From Nitrospirales bacterium (GTDB lineage: Bacteria > Nitrospirota > Nitrospiria > Nitrospirales > UBA8639): DNA of 32,778 nt. Of the stretch, positions 23,177 through 30,425 are shown piece after piece. Within the stretch, counting starts at the first letter, position 1. The number at the start of each line of letters is the position of its first letter. The notes under the pieces are model-generated. The model searched no databases. It worked only from the letters and a program-made list of their open reading frames with translations, and was not told the origin of the DNA. The stretch covers positions 1-32,778 of the forward strand of contig WHTE01000020.1 of NCBI GenBank assembly GCA_009377845.1, in the 5' to 3' direction. Both the position numbers and the translations under genes were made by a program.

Positions 23177-24174
23177 CTACTGTTCCAAAGAGCTCATTGG
23201 CTTTGATACGCCGTCCTGGTTTTTTAGCAACATCAGACAGACGAGGCCAAAAAGAATCCAGAGAATTTCTCGCAATCTTCGAATGAGCGCGAAGGTAATG
23301 CCTGTCACTTCCGAATATCCAAAACTCATCAATAGTAAGGTATATCCTCCTTCTTGGGCACCCAGGCTCCCAGGGATAAAAAACGTACCCCCTTTGATGA
23401 ACACCGTCAACGCCGCAATTGAAATGGCTGTCCACACATCGATATTCACATCCAGGTAGTAGAGGATGGCATAGACCTCAAGAGTTTCCGTCAGCCACGC
23501 CAGGAAAAAAATGGCCAAGGCGCATAAAAGGTCTGCTGGCGCTGAGAATAAAAACCCCGGATGGTGCCGTCCAGCTCCCGCAGTTGAGGTTCTCGTTTAT
23601 CAAGAAAAGCCAACCGGATGCCGCACGCTCTCAATATGCCCAAGCACCCCATGCCGATGCCATGGCGTTGGAGCAGCACAAACAGCCCGACTCCAAACGC
23701 TAAAACTCCCCCGCTGACCAACATGGCCACCCAATAATGACCCGCGTCCCCAATAATCCAAAAAGCCAGAGCCAATCCCAGCAAGATAAAGAGCACTTGC
23801 GCAAGGGTCATTGTGGTCTTCGCGGTAATGACGGATGCCAACCCGTCCACCATTGGCACACCATACCGTTTCAGGAGATAGGCCTTCAGGGGTTCCCCAC
23901 CTACATAGGCCGTGGGAGTCGTGACATTGACGGTTTCACCGGCCATCCTGATGGCAAACACACGCATGAACCCGACTTTTCGAGCATGAGACCCCAGAGT
24001 GAGTTGCCATCCCAAGGCTTCTAACCCATACACCACAATCATGGGGAGAAGGATAAGCCCGAGATGAAGAAGACCTAATTGGGAAACGGTCTGGAGGATC
24101 GGTTCGAGACCGATGTGGAGAACAATCCCGACCAGGGCCGCCAGGCCAACGATCAGGAAAATCAGTTTAAGCAC
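23177..24174 (-). pseudogene. Lysylphosphatidylglycerol-synthase-TM/UPF0104-like membrane protein, frameshifted
   Basis: Two frames form one protein of about 330 residues. The first (GTG 24174) begins with LIFLIVGLAALVGIVLHIGLEPIL and has several membrane segments with the family pattern AGETVNVTTPTAYVGGEPLKAYLL. The second has TETLEVYAILYYLDV, FFIPGSLGAQEGGYTLLL and FALIRRLREILWI, which are typical of the C-terminal half. The shift maps to about 23505-23530, where the minus strand has seven T; an eighth T would restore the whole frame. Members of this superfamily are membrane proteins, some of them acting as lipid flippases. The start overlaps the end of the CDP-alcohol phosphotransferase gene, so it is part of the operon. 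It may be a real lesion, a phase-variable tract, or a sequencing error. Confidence 0.72.
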
Positions 24175-25651
24175 GAGGGATGAGGCTTCGACGAAGCATC
24201 CAGGCCATCGACATCACAAAGACCCATGAGCCAACCGCAGCCAGAGCTAAAAACCAGTGCAGGATGCCTAACCCTGCACAGAGTAACACCAGGACTGAAA
24301 AATCCCGATTGACAAGATGGCCCAACATAAATTCAATATTGGCCCGTTCCCGTTCTGTCAGTTGCCGAAGTGCACGAGGACGGGCACGCAGTTGCCGAGC
24401 ATGATTGACTAACAACAAGGACGCCACATTCGCCATGACCGTCGATGCACCAAGCAGAAGGGGGAGATGGGTGTGCTCCCAAGGCCCATGGAGAAACGCC
24501 CCGCAGGCAATTCCGGCAAAGAGCACGATGTGCACGATATTATCGGCCCAAATATCGAGTTCTTGTCCAAACTTGGATTCTGAAAAAGTCAGACGGGCGA
24601 CCTCACCATCACAGCAATCAATAATCGCGGACAATTGGAGAATCAGCGCCCCGAGAATGGCCAGTTCCCACGACCCGGGCACGAACAGCGCCGCCGCCAC
24701 GAGCCCCACAACCATGGACACCAGAGTAATGGTGTTCGGTGACCAACCCAACCGTAAAAACCCTCGCGTGAGGAGACCTGATAATTTGCGATTCACATAC
24801 CGGTCCACCAACCCGTCCAAGCCACCCTTGAGCGTGTGGAGTGATTTCAACAGAGTCCGCTCAGCCAGCTGTGGCCCCTTGGGACCACGGACATCTCTAA
24901 ACCAATGTGAAGCCCCGCCAATTGTCTGAATCGCCCCTTCTACCGCCGCTTGTTCAAGTGCCAACCGGAGCGGATTGGTGCCATGAGCGTGCAACACGCC
25001 TGAAATTCCTAAGAGCCTGGCTGGTAGGACCATCAGATCCCCAACAAGCGGTAACCGGCATCGATCATTAGCCTGTGGTTTGGTTTTGGGCTGTGGCGGC
25101 TGGGAAATTGAATGATCATGGAATACCACCGTAGAGGTTGTTCGTCCTTCAAGCCCTTCAGGCCGCAACACCACTCCGGGATTTCCCCAGTGATGCCCTT
25201 CCTCAGAATGACCCACCACAACCACCGCTTTCCCTTGAGAGCCTTCATTGCGCAAGCGCTGGACCAATGATGGCGAATACACCGTGTGGCAGCCCACGAT
25301 CATACAGGCTCCATTCACTTCCTCAGCAAGGGTTTCCCATGTTTGTGGGTCATGAGGAGGGAATTCGCGGACCGGCAGCCAACGAACAGCGGCTTGTATC
25401 CGGCTATCTTCTCGAAGGAGCCGACGAAGGGCTTGTTCCTCCGACCCGGTCAACACCCAAATTTGCGAGATGCCGCCTCGCTGCAACGTGAACACCGCCC
25501 GTTGAAAAAGCGTCATGCCTCCGACACGGGTCAGCGGACTGGGAACAGCTTCTCCGGTCCCTGCGCCTCCATGATCGAACACACCCACCGATGTCAATAA
25601 AATTGCCGTATCGACCGCGTGGGTGGCTTCCTGCTTGAGTGTTCCGTCCAT
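24167..25651 (-). CDS. CDP-alcohol phosphotransferase fused to a degenerate nucleotidyltransferase domain
   Basis: A 494-residue two-domain protein. The C-terminal half (about 280-490) has six or so membrane segments and the complete CDP-alcohol phosphotransferase signature D-x2-DG-x2-AR-x8-G-x3-D-x3-D: Asp345, Asp348-Gly349, Ala352-Arg353, Gly362, Asp366, Asp370. The N-terminal half (about 15-260) has a nucleotidyltransferase fold like that of bifunctional inositol-phosphate cytidylyltransferase/DIPP synthases, but the glycine loop is altered, the Lys of the P-K-P-L motif is Ser38 (VPSPLTRVGG), and the metal-binding Asp position reads GCH (120-122). It is therefore probably inactive. The protein should transfer a phospho- or phosphono-group from a CMP-activated head group to an alcohol at the membrane. 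It follows the PntC-like gene after 10 bases. Confidence 0.82.
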   Translation of the reverse strand: MDGTLKQEATHAVDTAILLTSVGVFDHGGAGTGEAVPSPLTRVGGMTLFQRAVFTLQRGGISQIWVLTGSEEQALRRLLREDSRIQAAVRWLPVREFPPHDPQTWETLAEEVNGACMIVGCHTVYSPSLVQRLRNEGSQGKAVVVVGHSEEGHHWGNPGVVLRPEGLEGRTTSTVVFHDHSISQPPQPKTKPQANDRCRLPLVGDLMVLPARLLGISGVLHAHGTNPLRLALEQAAVEGAIQTIGGASHWFRDVRGPKGPQLAERTLLKSLHTLKGGLDGLVDRYVNRKLSGLLTRGFLRLGWSPNTITLVSMVVGLVAAALFVPGSWELAILGALILQLSAIIDCCDGEVARLTFSESKFGQELDIWADNIVHIVLFAGIACGAFLHGPWEHTHLPLLLGASTVMANVASLLLVNHARQLRARPRALRQLTERERANIEFMLGHLVNRDFSVLVLLCAGLGILHWFLALAAVGSWVFVMSMAWMLRRSLIPRA

Positions 25652-25661
25652 AAATTGATCG

Positions 25662-26423
25662 CTACCGGGTCACGGGCGTTGTTGTGGCATTATTCTCCAA
25701 TTCCCTCATGGCAGGCAAGATCTCTAAAGAGGCCCGGTCTATATCTTCGGGAAAATCAATTTCAATCCAAGGAATCCCCCCAATTTTCTCGTATCCCACT
25801 GGCACCTCATTGAAAAACCCTTGTAGCGCGTCCTCATATTCCATATCGAGCGTTCCAGCTTCCATATGGGCCTGGACCGATTGCAACAAGGCTGGAATGT
25901 CCGATTTTTGGACTTTGAGAAACCCGACCCCTTCGCCAGCCTCATCATAGGTGGGCGACAAGGTTTTGCTTAAGGCGAGGACTCGACCAGCCTTGGCGGC
26001 AATCATACATTCTTCGGATGTCTGCTTCACTGTGTCATCCATTAACAGCGCCGTCGGTAAGGGAGAATGAAGCAGTCGTGCCAGGATGGTCGGGGCGTAG
26101 AGAACATCAGCATCCATGAACACGACATCTTCATCCATTTCCGACCTTGCTGCCCAGAGGGAGGTCATGCTCCCGCGAGTAAACTGTTCGTTCAGGACCC
26201 ACCGGATATCTTGGGCAAAGGGATCGGCCGCCATCGCCTTTCGAATATGATCTTGAGCAAACCCCACGACCAACACCACCTGTCGCACACCCAATCGTCC
26301 CAGGTTCTCCACATGACGAGATAACAACGTCCGCCCGCCAATTTCGACCAGACATTTCGGTCGCCCCTGCGTGACACCTTGCAACCGCCTTCCGACGCCT
26401 GCCGCGAAAATAATCGCCTTCAT
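25662..26423 (-). CDS. PntC-like cytidylyltransferase (MobA-like NTP transferase)
   Basis: A 253-residue nucleotidyltransferase with an intact active site: FAAGVGRRL (6-14), RPKCLVEIGG with Lys23, the metal-binding VFMDADVLY (Asp104, Asp106), and IEIDFPEDID (220-229). Relatives in phosphonate clusters (PntC) make CMP-2-aminoethylphosphonate from CTP, and others (LicC) make CDP-choline. Here the gene overlaps the AEP transaminase gene by four bases (ATGA), as in organisms where PntC is fused to that transaminase. This favours CMP-AEP as the product; that is inference from context. It would supply the donor for the CDP-alcohol phosphotransferase encoded next. Confidence 0.75.
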   Translation of the reverse strand: MKAIIFAAGVGRRLQGVTQGRPKCLVEIGGRTLLSRHVENLGRLGVRQVVLVVGFAQDHIRKAMAADPFAQDIRWVLNEQFTRGSMTSLWAARSEMDEDVVFMDADVLYAPTILARLLHSPLPTALLMDDTVKQTSEECMIAAKAGRVLALSKTLSPTYDEAGEGVGFLKVQKSDIPALLQSVQAHMEAGTLDMEYEDALQGFFNEVPVGYEKIGGIPWIEIDFPEDIDRASLEILPAMRELENNATTTPVTR

Positions 26424-27508
26424 GCTCGTGCCCTCGATAGGGTCGTTTGAAAAGCGGATAAAAATCCCTCAATATCCTGGCTAGTGATGGCCCCAATATT
26501 GGCCACACGGAAAATTTTCTCTTCTAATTGTCCTTGTCCGGCATAGATCACATAGCCGGATTGCTTCAACCCATCATGAAGGCGTTGGTAGGCACACCCC
26601 TCAGGGAGATAAAACGCTGTTAAGGTATTGCCGCGAAGGGCTGGAGAAAGCACCGGTTTCACCCCCCACTCTTCCAAACGTGTCCGGATAGTGGCAGCAT
26701 ACCCCTGAAATCGACCAATCCGATTCCCGACCCCTTCTTCTAACAATTCATTGAGGGCTTCCCGGAAGGCATAATACACCTGCACGGCGGGAGTAAATGG
26801 GATCGTTCCCCCCTCTTGCTCTTCATAATAATTGGCCAGATTCAAATACCAGGACCGCTTGGGATACGTCTTCACCCGCTCCATAAAACCTTTTCGCACA
26901 AGCACAAAAGCCACCCCTGGGAATCCTTGAATACATTTCTGGGCGGCGCCAGCCACCATGTAAATTTTATTTCCGGCAATATCCAGGGCTTCTCCGCCCA
27001 ATCCGCTGACCGAGTCCAGCATAAACACGCGGCCGTGCCGGTCGACAATCTCCGCAATTTCTTTCACCGGATTAATGAACCCCAGGGTTGTTTCATGATG
27101 AACCATCGCGACAGTGTGCACTTCCGGGTGTTGTTTGAGCGCCAAATCAACCGTCTGCGGATCCGGTGCAACTCCCCAGTCGTATTTTAAGTCCGGCGTC
27201 CCCAAGCGATGAGTGAGAATCATAGAAGACATCCGCTGTCCGTACACACCATTGTTGATGACCATCGCCCGCTTCCCAACCGGCATGCTCGACAGTAAGG
27301 CGGCCTCCACCGCGGCCGTGCCGGAACCCGTCAAGACAATAGCGATGTACTCCTCTTCCCCACCGGGAACGAAGGCCTTCAGCAATTTTTGACGTATATC
27401 GGCCAGTAATTCCGAGAACTCCGGTTCCCGATGACAAATATCTGGTTGAAGCAACGCATTGCGGACTCGATCAGACACATTGACCGGACCGGGATTCAAT
27501 AAAATCAT
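26420..27508 (-). CDS. 2-aminoethylphosphonate--pyruvate transaminase-like aminotransferase
   Basis: A 362-residue class V (fold type I) aminotransferase of the PhnW/AEPT group. It opens with LLNPGPVNVSDRVRNAL, carries VLTGSGTAAVEAAL, VHHETTLGFINPV, the cofactor-binding Asp165 (VFMLDSVSGLGG) and the Schiff-base Lys191 in AAQKCIQGFPGVAFVLV, very like the PhnW motif NKCIQG. PhnW interconverts AEP and phosphonoacetaldehyde; in a biosynthetic operon it would aminate the aldehyde. AAAGGAA lies before the ATG at 27508. The decarboxylase genes lie upstream and the cytidylyltransferase overlaps downstream, so a biosynthetic direction is more likely than catabolism; no phosphonoacetaldehyde hydrolase is present. 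Confidence 0.82.
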   Translation of the reverse strand: MILLNPGPVNVSDRVRNALLQPDICHREPEFSELLADIRQKLLKAFVPGGEEEYIAIVLTGSGTAAVEAALLSSMPVGKRAMVINNGVYGQRMSSMILTHRLGTPDLKYDWGVAPDPQTVDLALKQHPEVHTVAMVHHETTLGFINPVKEIAEIVDRHGRVFMLDSVSGLGGEALDIAGNKIYMVAGAAQKCIQGFPGVAFVLVRKGFMERVKTYPKRSWYLNLANYYEEQEGGTIPFTPAVQVYYAFREALNELLEEGVGNRIGRFQGYAATIRTRLEEWGVKPVLSPALRGNTLTAFYLPEGCAYQRLHDGLKQSGYVIYAGQGQLEEKIFRVANIGAITSQDIEGFLSAFQTTLSRARA

Positions 27509-27563: not shown

Positions 27564-28145
27564 TTAGGCGACACTTCCCTTAAACCGTTTCGTCAGCTCC
27601 GCTGGAGCCAAGGCAATCCGATCCGCATCTTCAAGCTGTTCATTCACCTTCACCAACAAAAAACTCGGACCTTCTTCCCCTAACATGGATTTAAACTCAT
27701 ACACAATATCTTCCCGCTCCCAGACTCGCTCGACATGTATGTAACCCGCAGCTTTGGCCAATTTGTCCAAGCCCACGACCCTGGAGTAGGTGGGTTGATT
27801 GCCGGTCGTGCCATACACCTCGTTGTCGAACACCACATGAATCAGATTTTTCGGCTTCAACGCGCCGATGGTGGCCAAGGTTCCAAGACTCATCAGCACA
27901 TTCCCGTCACCATCAAAGACGACAACCGTTTTCTCCGGTCGGGCCAGGGCCAATCCTAATCCGATGCCCGCAGACGCGCCCATCGAGCCAATCATATAAA
28001 AATTTTGATCCCGATCGCGGAGTTTACAGGCTTCACGGGACGGAAACCCATTGCAGATAATGAGCGGCTGATCGGTCATCAGTTCCAAAATGGCCGACAT
28101 CGCCTGCGCCCGGCTCTGCATCACCCCTTCTTCTGGTCCAATCAT
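27564..28145 (-). CDS. Phosphonopyruvate (or sulfopyruvate) decarboxylase, ThDP-binding subunit
   Basis: A 193-residue protein equal to the C-terminal half of phosphonopyruvate decarboxylase or to the beta subunit of sulfopyruvate decarboxylase. It has IICNGFPSREACKLRDRDQNFYMIGSMG with a short break, GLGLALARPEKTVVVFDGDGNVLMSLG and FDNEVYGTTGNQ: the thiamine-diphosphate GDG...N motif is complete. With its partner it would decarboxylate phosphonopyruvate to phosphonoacetaldehyde, the step that pulls phosphonate formation forward. GGAG precedes the ATG at 28145. The transaminase gene follows after 55 bases. The two subunit genes are separated by about 190 bases of repeat-like sequence, which is odd for an obligate pair. 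Confidence 0.78.
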   Translation of the reverse strand: MIGPEEGVMQSRAQAMSAILELMTDQPLIICNGFPSREACKLRDRDQNFYMIGSMGASAGIGLGLALARPEKTVVVFDGDGNVLMSLGTLATIGALKPKNLIHVVFDNEVYGTTGNQPTYSRVVGLDKLAKAAGYIHVERVWEREDIVYEFKSMLGEEGPSFLLVKVNEQLEDADRIALAPAELTKRFKGSVA

Positions 28146-28337: not shown

Positions 28338-28850
28338 CTACGGCTGAATAGTTTTCACGATTCCTTTTTTTAACAATAACGCCAGAGGAATCCGCTTCTC
28401 CATAAATGTTTTTGCCGTCCATTGCAGATCCTCCACGATCGTCTCCGGCGACAGCGTCCGGTGGGGAATCCGCACCGTATCCAAGAGTGTCGTCATGGTT
28501 TCCCCCATTACCAGATGTTCCGGAGCATCCTTGCCTTCAAAACCGCGCCAGGATACCAACAACAAACACGGGATCTGATAAATCAAATTGAGAGAAGCCA
28601 AGACGTTGAGGGCATTGCCTAACCCGGAGTTTTGCATGAGCACGGCCGGGACTTTCCCGCCCAGGTAGGCCCCTGCTGCCATCGCCACCGCTTCGTCCTC
28701 ACGAACCGCCGGCGTATACAGCCGTTCTTCCGTCAAATGGGCAATGATGCCTCCCAAAATGGTGTCCGGAACACCGGTAAAAAAATCGAACCCAATGCCC
28801 TGCAGGCCCTTCACAAAATCATCGGCTTCTAACATGGTCATCATGCTCAT
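28338..28850 (-). CDS. Phosphonopyruvate (or sulfopyruvate) decarboxylase, N-terminal/alpha subunit
   Basis: About 170 residues, equal to the N-terminal PYR domain of ThDP decarboxylases. FDFFTGVPDTILGGI, the activator-Glu region VREDEAVAMAAGAYLGG, MQNSGLGNALNVLASL and WRGFEGKDAPEHLVMG match the phosphonopyruvate decarboxylase pattern; split archaeal sulfopyruvate decarboxylases have the same subunit size. Several start codons are close together (TTG 28856, ATG 28850, 28844); I chose ATG 28850, with low certainty. It is the first gene of the operon and has a promoter about 150 bases upstream. The partner subunit follows after the repeat-like spacer. Confidence 0.77.
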   Translation of the reverse strand: MSMMTMLEADDFVKGLQGIGFDFFTGVPDTILGGIIAHLTEERLYTPAVREDEAVAMAAGAYLGGKVPAVLMQNSGLGNALNVLASLNLIYQIPCLLLVSWRGFEGKDAPEHLVMGETMTTLLDTVRIPHRTLSPETIVEDLQWTAKTFMEKRIPLALLLKKGIVKTIQP

Positions 28851-28886
28851 ATGCAATTCTTAGAAAACCCCACCACGTTCCCCGCC

Positions 28887-29121: not shown

Positions 29122-29523
29122 ATGAAAAAGGCTCAACCTTCCTCTCGGTCGGGATATTCAGAACGGCATGCGAAAAGCGGACTGACCGCCAAATTACCAA
29201 GACTGGAAACCTGGCCCAACCAGTATCCGGGATACGAAATCACCATTGAAATTCCGGAGTACACGGCCATCTGTCCCAAAACAGGATTGCCGGATTTTGG
29301 CGTGATTCGGTTGAGCTACGTACCCGACCAGTCCTGTATCGAACTCAAGTCGCTTAAACTCTATATCCACGGATATCGAAATGTCGGCATCTTTTATGAG
29401 AATGCCGTGAACAAAATTCTGGCTGATTTAGTTAAAGCCTGTCGTCCGGTATCAGCAACCGTGACGGGGGAGTTTACCGCCAGAGGGGGGCTCCGCAGCG
29501 TGATCCAAGCCAGCTATCCTTAA
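29122..29523 (+). CDS. queF: NADPH-dependent 7-cyano-7-deazaguanine reductase (type I QueF)
   Basis: A 133-residue protein, the usual length of the single-domain QueF. AICPKTGLPDFGVIRLSYVPD carries the catalytic Cys and Asp in the C-x6-D pattern. ELKSLKLYIHGYRN is the family signature (E-L-K-S-L-K-L-Y). It reduces preQ0 to preQ1 in queuosine synthesis. After the signature the sequence reads GIFYENAVNKIL: the substrate-binding Glu is kept, but the His before it in the Bacillus enzyme is Tyr here and the following Asp is Asn. The ATG at 29122 has no strong ribosome site. It stands alone, divergent from the phosphonate-type operon. I saw no preQ1 riboswitch upstream. Confidence 0.9.
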   Translation: MKKAQPSSRSGYSERHAKSGLTAKLPRLETWPNQYPGYEITIEIPEYTAICPKTGLPDFGVIRLSYVPDQSCIELKSLKLYIHGYRNVGIFYENAVNKILADLVKACRPVSATVTGEFTARGGLRSVIQASYP

Positions 29524-29574
29524 TCGTCCTTCCCTTTTCTCCATCTGAAAATGTTGAAAAAGCATTGGCGGTAG

Positions 29575-30300
29575 TCCTACGGCTATCAGTGAAATGCGTG
29601 ATTGAGCCTTGATGATTGCTGTTAAAATAGAAGAAGGCGACACCAGCCTTTTGGAGCACCAACTGCTGATCGACTTGATCCCCATGAGAATACAGGGCCA
29701 GGAAGGTATTCGTGCCGTCATACTCCAGCCGGATATCTTCCCCATCATAGACATACCGGGTGATCGTCCCGACGACGTTCTTTTCAATCCGGCATCCTAA
29801 ACCATCGTATTTATACGTCACCGTCGGGCTGTCGGGGCGGTCGATCTGGATCAACTGATCCTGGGCATCCCAGTAGTACGTGGTAACCTGAGAGGTCGCT
29901 TTCTCCGTCTTCGTCTCGAGATTACCATTGTTATCGTAGGTGTAGGTGAATTGATCGTCTTCCAATAGCCGATTCAAATCATCGTGGGTGTGGGTTGTGG
30001 ATAGGAACGAGGTCGTGCGGTTGCCTACCAAATCGTAAGAAATAGGTTTCTGCTATGCCCCTGGTGCCGCTCGTCTTTAACCGCTGCAAAGCATCGTAGG
30101 TGTGGTTCCGATTCTCGGAAGGAGCCACCTGATCCAGGATCTGCAAGATATTCCCCACCGGATTGTAGGTATAGCCGAAGGAGGCATTTGGGTGTGATGG
30201 GGCCGGCGAATGCTTGAAACCGTCTCGGTTGCCATGGAATCAGCAGCAGAATATTTTGGATATGGTCGAGGCGTTGGGTGCCCAAACAGGACAGCGGTCG
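29575..30300 (-). pseudogene. Rhs/YD-repeat protein remnant
   Basis: Minus-strand fragments of an Rhs protein lie in at least three frames. In order: ETVSSI and AGPITP in two frames, FGYTYNPVGNILQILDQ in the third, then after a shift near 30040 YDLVGNRTTSF, FTYTYDNNGNLETKTE, YYWDAQDQLIQIDRP, YKYDGLGCRIEKN, RYVYDGEDIRLEYDG and finally YFNSNHQGSITHFTD. These are classic YD repeats (Y-D-x2-G-N). Rhs proteins are large secreted toxins or surface proteins; the variable C-terminal toxin is absent here. The remnant ends near 29575, where a TGTTGAAAAA motif resembling the end of the repeat at 8128-8413 begins. Clearly a decayed gene. Confidence 0.75.
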
Positions 30301-30425
30301 GCATGGTGACAAGCGGCTAAAGAGAGCGGGCAAGGCAAGAGCCAACAAACAACAAAAGATATCATCCCTTTTCCTTCGTCATCGGGCATCCATCTTCTTT
30401 TTTTCGTCATCTCTTCTCAATCAAA

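Follow-up and report, generated by a model that had tools for sequence, protein, structure and literature searches.

A cytidylyltransferase-like domain packed on a CDP-alcohol phosphotransferase is already known from AF2299 (structures 4o6m, 4o6n and 4q7c), whose donor is CDP-glycerol according to the available text of PMC4634129, and the same two-domain order and fold, with the same phosphotransferase signature, are found in IPCT-DIPPS (4mnd). In phosphonate biosynthesis, the cytidylyltransferase PntC of Tde is fused to 2-aminoethylphosphonate transaminase (AEPT) in Tde-PntC-AEPT (6pd1/6pd2), and the accessible part of Rice et al. (2019, PMC6697681) calls the tailoring steps after activation unknown. 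The gene set discussed below is likewise known, from the Nostoc II phosphonate cluster (PMC5987646, 2018), which comprises a CDP-alcohol phosphatidyltransferase, NTPT, pepM, ppd, AEPT and hpnL; this comparison is by description only, and the available text of that report gives no dead domain and no fusion of PntC to a phosphotransferase. Here we describe a locus in the window, as we call the whole stretch of 32,778 nucleotides analysed (contig WHTE01000020.1, numbered contig 7 here, of the Nitrospirales bacterium assembly GCA_009377845.1, a 3.2-Mb draft genome labelled G000), which encodes a 494-residue fusion of a degenerate nucleotidyltransferase-fold domain to a CDP-alcohol phosphotransferase. 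It shares its architecture with both proteins but, unlike IPCT-DIPPS, lacks the cytidylyltransferase residues, reads RDFS in place of RDxR, and belongs to a phosphonate operon; AF2299 differs in the donor given above, in keeping RDFR, and in its shorter N-terminal domain, the phosphotransferase match starting at residue 162 of a 372-residue chain.

The best explanation, and in our judgement a probable one, is that this protein is a phosphonate-transferring phosphotransferase with a catalytically dead accessory N-terminal domain, the neighbouring PntC-like enzyme supplying its donor. Such an arrangement would link a transferase to its likely activating enzyme and to a flippase through an order-wide operon, a pseudoenzyme domain and natural gene fusions, and makes the step after PntC directly testable. 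A search of titles and abstracts, with subscription papers largely outside its reach, returned neither a comparable dead domain within a phosphonate operon nor phosphonate synthesis by Nitrospira.

To characterise the fusion across its relatives, 120 stretches were fetched and the phosphotransferase open reading frames (ORFs) of 119 of them were aligned together with that of the window. The resulting 120 ORFs were sorted into 94 fusions of this order, 12 DIPPS-type fusions, four direct fusions of PntC to the phosphotransferase and two proteins without an N-terminal domain, the rest being six paralogues or outgroups, one decayed copy and one fragment. These groups were drawn by eye with the alignment in view, so that the 12/12 control used below is partly a matter of choice; in a tree built from only the phosphotransferase half, however, the 12 DIPPS-type fusions group as a single clade (100/100).

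The earlier note, made from the letters of the window, had proposed that the fused domain carries Ser38 in place of the catalytic Lys of P-K-P-L, an altered glycine loop, and Gly-Cys-His in place of the metal-binding Asp motif, and all three losses are borne out throughout the order. Ser38 lies in P-S-P-L, and its column holds Gly in 63, Ser in 27, His in two, Leu in one and Pro in one of the 94 fusions, and Lys in none, against Lys in 12/12 DIPPS-type proteins of the same alignment. The His122 column (within Gly120-Cys121-His122) contains Asp in 0/94 fusions versus 12/12 of the DIPPS type, and the glycine loop is gone; the single match to its pattern, in G016 (AAGTG, with no PK), is a coincidence. 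Both catalytic residues are present in all four direct PntC fusions, and the catalytic Lys is likewise missing from the six further paralogues or outgroups. Against Pfam NTP_transf_3 the fused domain scores 20.3 bits, under the cut-off of 27, and its PntC-like neighbour 59.8. A catalytic Lys or Asp at a shifted position was ruled out: no column of the N-terminal domain holds Lys in more than 60% of the 94 fusions, Lys occurs within residues 30-44 in only eight of them and at scattered places, and Asp is absent from the metal position. Since alanine mutants of Tde-PntC at Arg15, Lys25 or Lys153 retain <10% activity (Rice et al. 2019, PMC6697681, available text), loss of this set should abolish the chemistry, and the fused domain should be without CTP-transfer activity.

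The adjacent gene, by contrast, keeps all of these motifs, as the earlier note had said, and the limits and strand it gave for both ORFs are correct. Its active-site residues R13, K23, D106 and K153 correspond to R15, K25, D106 and K153 of Tde-PntC, which the N-terminal half of the direct fusions also matches, and 97-98 of the 98 PntC-like ORFs with an identity of 36% or more retain this Arg, Lys, Asp, Lys set, the single exception presumably being a decayed copy in G106. The loop reads GVGRR, with Arg where the published consensus, GXG(T/S)R, has T or S. Of the two positions near the 2-aminoethylphosphonate amine, both Glu in Tde, 196 is Glu in 97/98 and 104 is Asp throughout (see below). The neighbour is a putative CTP:2-aminoethylphosphonate cytidylyltransferase, encoded separately or fused to the phosphotransferase rather than to the transaminase as in Tde. 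In 90 of the 94 fusion loci a pntC gene precedes the fusion on the same strand, within ~400 bases in 86 of these, and in G029 and G020 it lies elsewhere in the genome, so that an intact PntC was found for 92/94.

In the window, six minus-strand genes stand in a row: decarboxylase alpha, decarboxylase beta, transaminase, PntC-like, fusion and flippase-like. The transaminase and pntC genes overlap by four bases, ten bases separate pntC from the fusion, and the flippase start overlaps the fusion stop. A Pfam search of the window for PepM gave no match; PepM fused to a nucleotidyltransferase domain, with the EDKxxxxxNS motif, is encoded on contig 57 of the same genome, unlinked from the operon, and such a fusion was found in 106/117 genomes.

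From family matches and the available text of Rice et al. (PMC6697681), PepM, Ppd and the transaminase would make 2-aminoethylphosphonate, which the stand-alone PntC-like enzyme would convert to an activated donor. This is most likely cytidine monophosphate (CMP)-2-aminoethylphosphonate, because the fusion sits in a recurring ppdA-ppdB-AEPT-pntC-fusion-flippase operon. The membrane domain of the fusion would then pass the phosphonate on to an alcohol, which is probably not the inositol phosphate used by DIPP synthase, and the product would probably cross the membrane by way of the flippase-like protein. The degenerate domain would pack against the membrane domain and present a new conserved patch, plausibly one that keeps PntC, or the product of PntC, close to the active site in the membrane.

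All eight residues of the signature D1xxD2G1xxAR...G2xxxD3xxxD4 are present in 94/94 fusions, and the window protein matches PF01066 with 50.1 bits over a cut-off of 22. The AlphaFold2 model (69 alignment rows; scores in Table 1), also searched with Foldseek, has its best matches in AF2299 (4q7c), with Z 25.8 and a root-mean-square deviation (rmsd) of 3.6 over 329 residues, spanning residues 13-490, and in 4mnd, with Z 25.4 and rmsd 3.8 over 399 residues, in each case across both domains. In profile comparison the degenerate domain resembles the DIPPS-type cytidylyltransferase (E 3e-16) more closely than it does PntC (E 4e-6), which favours its origin from a DIPPS-like fusion, although the closest pair is formed by the DIPPS-type and PntC profiles (E 3e-37). 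The description of the protein as DIPP-synthase-like therefore stands for fold and profile, and fails at the motif: RDxR of 12/12 DIPPS-type proteins (RDER in 4mnd) is RDFS in 94/94 fusions, 4/4 direct fusions and 2/2 domain-less proteins, and for this reason we do not class the fusion as a DIPP synthase. NCBIfam NF041135 gives 80.8 bits against a cut-off of 580, a weak test as this is a Thermococcales model.

As to the acceptor, an RxxR motif of PIP synthase helps to bind inositol phosphate (PMC4634129, available text), and we infer that RDxR is its counterpart, in which case the acceptor here would not be a phosphorylated inositol; the phmmer alignment places the PIP synthase RPER opposite another stretch. 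Six-helix enzymes are described as using soluble acceptors (PMC4634129, available text), which sits uneasily with a flippase in the operon. As a separate observation, five loci (L088, L137 and L138 of family f2; L132 and L134 of family f4) carry a squalene-hopene-cyclase-like toroid gene between pntC and the phosphotransferase gene. Its product is short (327 residues in L088, by Pfam), a Rieske-like protein stands beside it in four of the five (by Pfam in L088, by eye in the others), and the toroid was found in two of 18 genomes searched, both of families f2/f4. It may point to an isoprenoid acceptor.

Where the intact enzymes displayed have a loop reading N...(N/G)-(G/S/A)-x-S, most of the fusions displayed have instead R-W-x-P-x-R-E-F-P...D-P-x-T-W. 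R90, W91 and W105 of this motif, which sequence alignment places in the former nucleotide-loop region, are present in 94/94 fusions versus 0/12 of the DIPPS type. The ratio of non-synonymous to synonymous substitution rates (dN/dS; Nei-Gojobori medians of pairs within five groups) was 0.07-0.20 in the degenerate domain, compared with 0.06-0.27 in the phosphotransferase half and 0.07-0.18 in PntC; purifying selection therefore acts on the domain, a little less strictly than on the enzyme half. In four of the five groups no other region compared had a dN/dS as low as that of residues 84-112 (0.02-0.05 in four, 0.21 in genus g4), and the stretch of the former glycine loop was less constrained than the domain as a whole in four of the five, by a narrow margin in one. 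Judged from these alignments, the domain is more than an old scaffold, for it bears a new invariant motif.

A match to the fusion was found in 110/117 genomes including the window's own, a few being partial or to paralogues only, and a scan of genome contigs with the window protein returned nine relatives, eight of them full-length, the nearest named being Nitrospirales/Nitrospirota metagenome assemblies. Plasmid records gave two short CDP-alcohol phosphotransferase matches with the window protein and none with that of G233. The gene order given above recurs across families f1, f2 and f3, with two extra genes before the fusion in f2, and in G233, which belongs to another order of the same class and also has a degenerate N-terminal domain. 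Not all six genes are grouped everywhere: among 101 loci, simple ORF calling placed the flippase in 93 and the transaminase in 86. The earlier idea that a stand-alone PntC has replaced the cytidylyltransferase of the fusion accordingly gains from the arrangement of the two genes, but not as a recent local event, which is ruled out by the loss of Lys and Asp across f1, f2 and f3; the loss of catalytic residues, as read from the alignment, is old.

Four genomes of one genus (G032, G039, G043 and G046; 98-100% complete) go further. In these, PntC runs in frame into the phosphotransferase and the degenerate domain is gone; neither a second PntC nor a degenerate domain was found there at the cut-offs used, and an assembly error is unlikely given four separate genomes and an open frame without stops. 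PntC ending in ...ILP(R/W)L is joined to ...LALEQA near the end of the former domain. CGGTTG occurs at the domain side in four of the five unfused relatives displayed, and two of six have it at the PntC end (CGGCTG in G040), which makes a short-homology deletion a possible origin. Judged by the phosphotransferase, G040 is the closest of the unfused relatives (84-89% in that part, 85-92% in PntC). The tree and the common junction are consistent with a single event within one genus, but G046 lacks a firm grouping with the other three and has a different linker. The predicted structure of the direct fusion matches PntC (6pd2) with Z 29.5. Its pTM is 0.59 against 0.80 for the fusion, which may reflect a loose tethering of PntC in the direct fusion, a contrast not used as support because the alignments differ. 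PntC in cis replacing the degenerate domain fits docking, and the domain could equally be dispensable; either way, these genomes would offer a clean case of a dead enzyme domain long kept and swapped for a live one in a few species.

Two genomes of family f4 (G050 and G053) encode the phosphotransferase without any N-terminal domain; in them, as in the direct fusions, the CDP-alcohol phosphotransferase signature is intact. The tree is midpoint-rooted with a long DIPPS-type branch and does not decide whether this state is ancestral. Outside the linker, five conserved membrane-domain columns are changed there, and two of the five are L354 (to I) and F356 (to H). These align with the loop between transmembrane helices 2 and 3 of AF2299, whose Leu and Phe occupy pockets in the extramembrane domain (PMC4634129, available text), and the change is at most suggestive of a lost N-domain contact.

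The degenerate domain might have only a structural or dimer-stabilising role, inherited from a DIPP-synthase-like ancestor and without any link to PntC, an explanation to which we give somewhat less than an even chance. The packed domain of AF2299 (PMC4634129, available text), a model that places both domains and the near-absence of co-change in PntC where direct fusion removed the domain all speak for it; both domain-less lineages nevertheless keep an intact signature, an invariant motif has arisen in alignment with the old nucleotide loop, and the four deletions set PntC exactly in the domain's place. At the other extreme, the domain could be a dedicated PntC receptor in a membrane metabolon passing CMP-aminoethylphosphonate, the cis fusions being a covalent replacement of the dock; in this strong form we regard the proposal as tentative and rather doubtful. 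The charged and aromatic residues that are invariant and fall, by alignment, in the region of the base-binding loop, and the low dN/dS of residues 84-112 in four of five groups, would also suit an allosteric sensor that binds a nucleotide or metabolite (e.g. CMP or cytidine triphosphate, CTP) and gates the transferase; we hold this to be unlikely, as the glycine loop, Lys and Asp are gone and the domain is absent from four plus two genomes.

Several observations weigh against a phosphonate transferase fed by PntC through an accessory domain. The decarboxylase and transaminase names are best NCBIfam matches, all under curated cut-offs, and PntC position 104 is Asp in 98/98, versus Glu104 in Tde-PntC and Asp105 in LicC, which leaves 2-aminoethylphosphonate uncertain as the exact substrate. 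Two genomes with the fusion, G057 and G062, yielded no full PntC (they are 87-88% complete, with contigs ending close by). Conservation is lower in the degenerate domain than in the membrane half (median pairwise identity 0.41 vs 0.50); in four of five groups the dN/dS of the domain lies between one and 1.7 times that of the phosphotransferase half of the same protein, and in the fifth it is below it. Just one conserved PntC column is changed in most direct fusions, so no docking face is seen to relax, and the L354/F356 change comes from two related genomes, while two of the 12 DIPPS-type fusions, which have the N-terminal domain, also lack an aromatic residue at 356 (His in one, Leu in one). 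Finally, the nucleotidyltransferase domain fused to PepM on contig 57 keeps PKT and GDV stretches (by eye), and in G244 the phosphotransferase adjoins Ppd and PepM-nucleotidyltransferase with no close PntC in the cluster (the N-terminal domains of G244 and G244b match none of three profiles). That domain could then be the activator and PntC serve another step, which we think quite improbable: it is encoded outside the operon here, and PntC adjoins the phosphotransferase gene and is the part that four genomes have fused to it. Nucleotide transfer by a rebuilt active site in the N-terminal domain, for which the conserved R51, R58, R84, R90, R95 and R134 might be enlisted, is very improbable, as R51 is common to intact enzymes, a conserved Lys and an Asp at the metal position are missing, and intact PntC accompanies nearly all fusions.

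Table 1 Features of the phosphonate operon and of the fusion protein in the window
Feature	Coordinates	Strand	Evidence
Fusion protein, 494 residues, putatively dead nucleotidyltransferase-fold domain + CDP-alcohol phosphotransferase	24167..25651	-	ORF, Pfam, model (predicted local distance difference test, pLDDT, 82.4; predicted template modelling score, pTM, 0.80)
Putatively dead cytidylyltransferase-fold domain, ~residues 10-255	24887..25624	-	structure match to 4mnd/AF2299; profile match to DIPPS-type N-terminal domain
Ser38 codon where catalytic Lys is expected	25538..25540	-	Lys 0/94 here vs 12/12 DIPPS-type
Gly120-Cys121-His122 where metal-binding Asp motif is expected	25286..25294	-	Asp 0/94 here vs 12/12 DIPPS-type
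New motif, residues 90-106 (R90, W91, E96, W105 invariant), in alignment opposite the nucleotide loop of intact enzymes	25334..25384	-	alignments, dN/dS
CDP-alcohol phosphotransferase membrane domain, ~residues 281-494	24170..24811	-	PF01066, model
Signature DxxDGxxAR...GxxxDxxxD, residues 345-370	24542..24619	-	all eight residues in 94/94
Intact PntC-like cytidylyltransferase, 253 residues	25662..26423	-	Pfam, motif alignment
2-aminoethylphosphonate transaminase-like (AEPT)	26420..27508	-	best model TIGR03301, 340 bits, under cut-off 360.8
Phosphonopyruvate/sulfopyruvate decarboxylase beta-like	27564..28145	-	TIGR03846 185.3 and TIGR03297 172.3 bits, both under cut-off
Phosphonopyruvate/sulfopyruvate decarboxylase alpha-like	28338..28856	-	TIGR03297 133.5 bits, under cut-off
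Flippase-like protein (LPG_synthase_TM / HpnL), two frames here	23177..24174	-	ORF, Pfam, NCBIfam; single frame in relatives

Some further features of the operon and its relatives were recorded. The flippase-like gene of the window has a frame break near a run of seven T, where relatives have one frame of ~345 residues, and the split could reflect either an error of sequencing or a true interruption of the gene. Upstream of the operon, fragments at 29474-30348 (minus) resemble, by eye only, an Rhs/YD-repeat protein. In some genomes, e.g. G106 and G098, a more distant PepM adjoins the operon, and G106 also has a second, decayed partial operon (L141; contig 1, 1219000-1234500), with pieces from transaminase to flippase, beside the intact one. 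Three paralogous fusions (G048b, G104b and G328b, at loci L131, L165 and L166) pair a different degenerate N-terminal domain with an intact phosphotransferase signature, and no phosphonate gene was matched in the stretches around them. At L130 (G048, contig 20), the degenerate domain is in frame, most of the phosphotransferase is missing, and the flippase follows directly.

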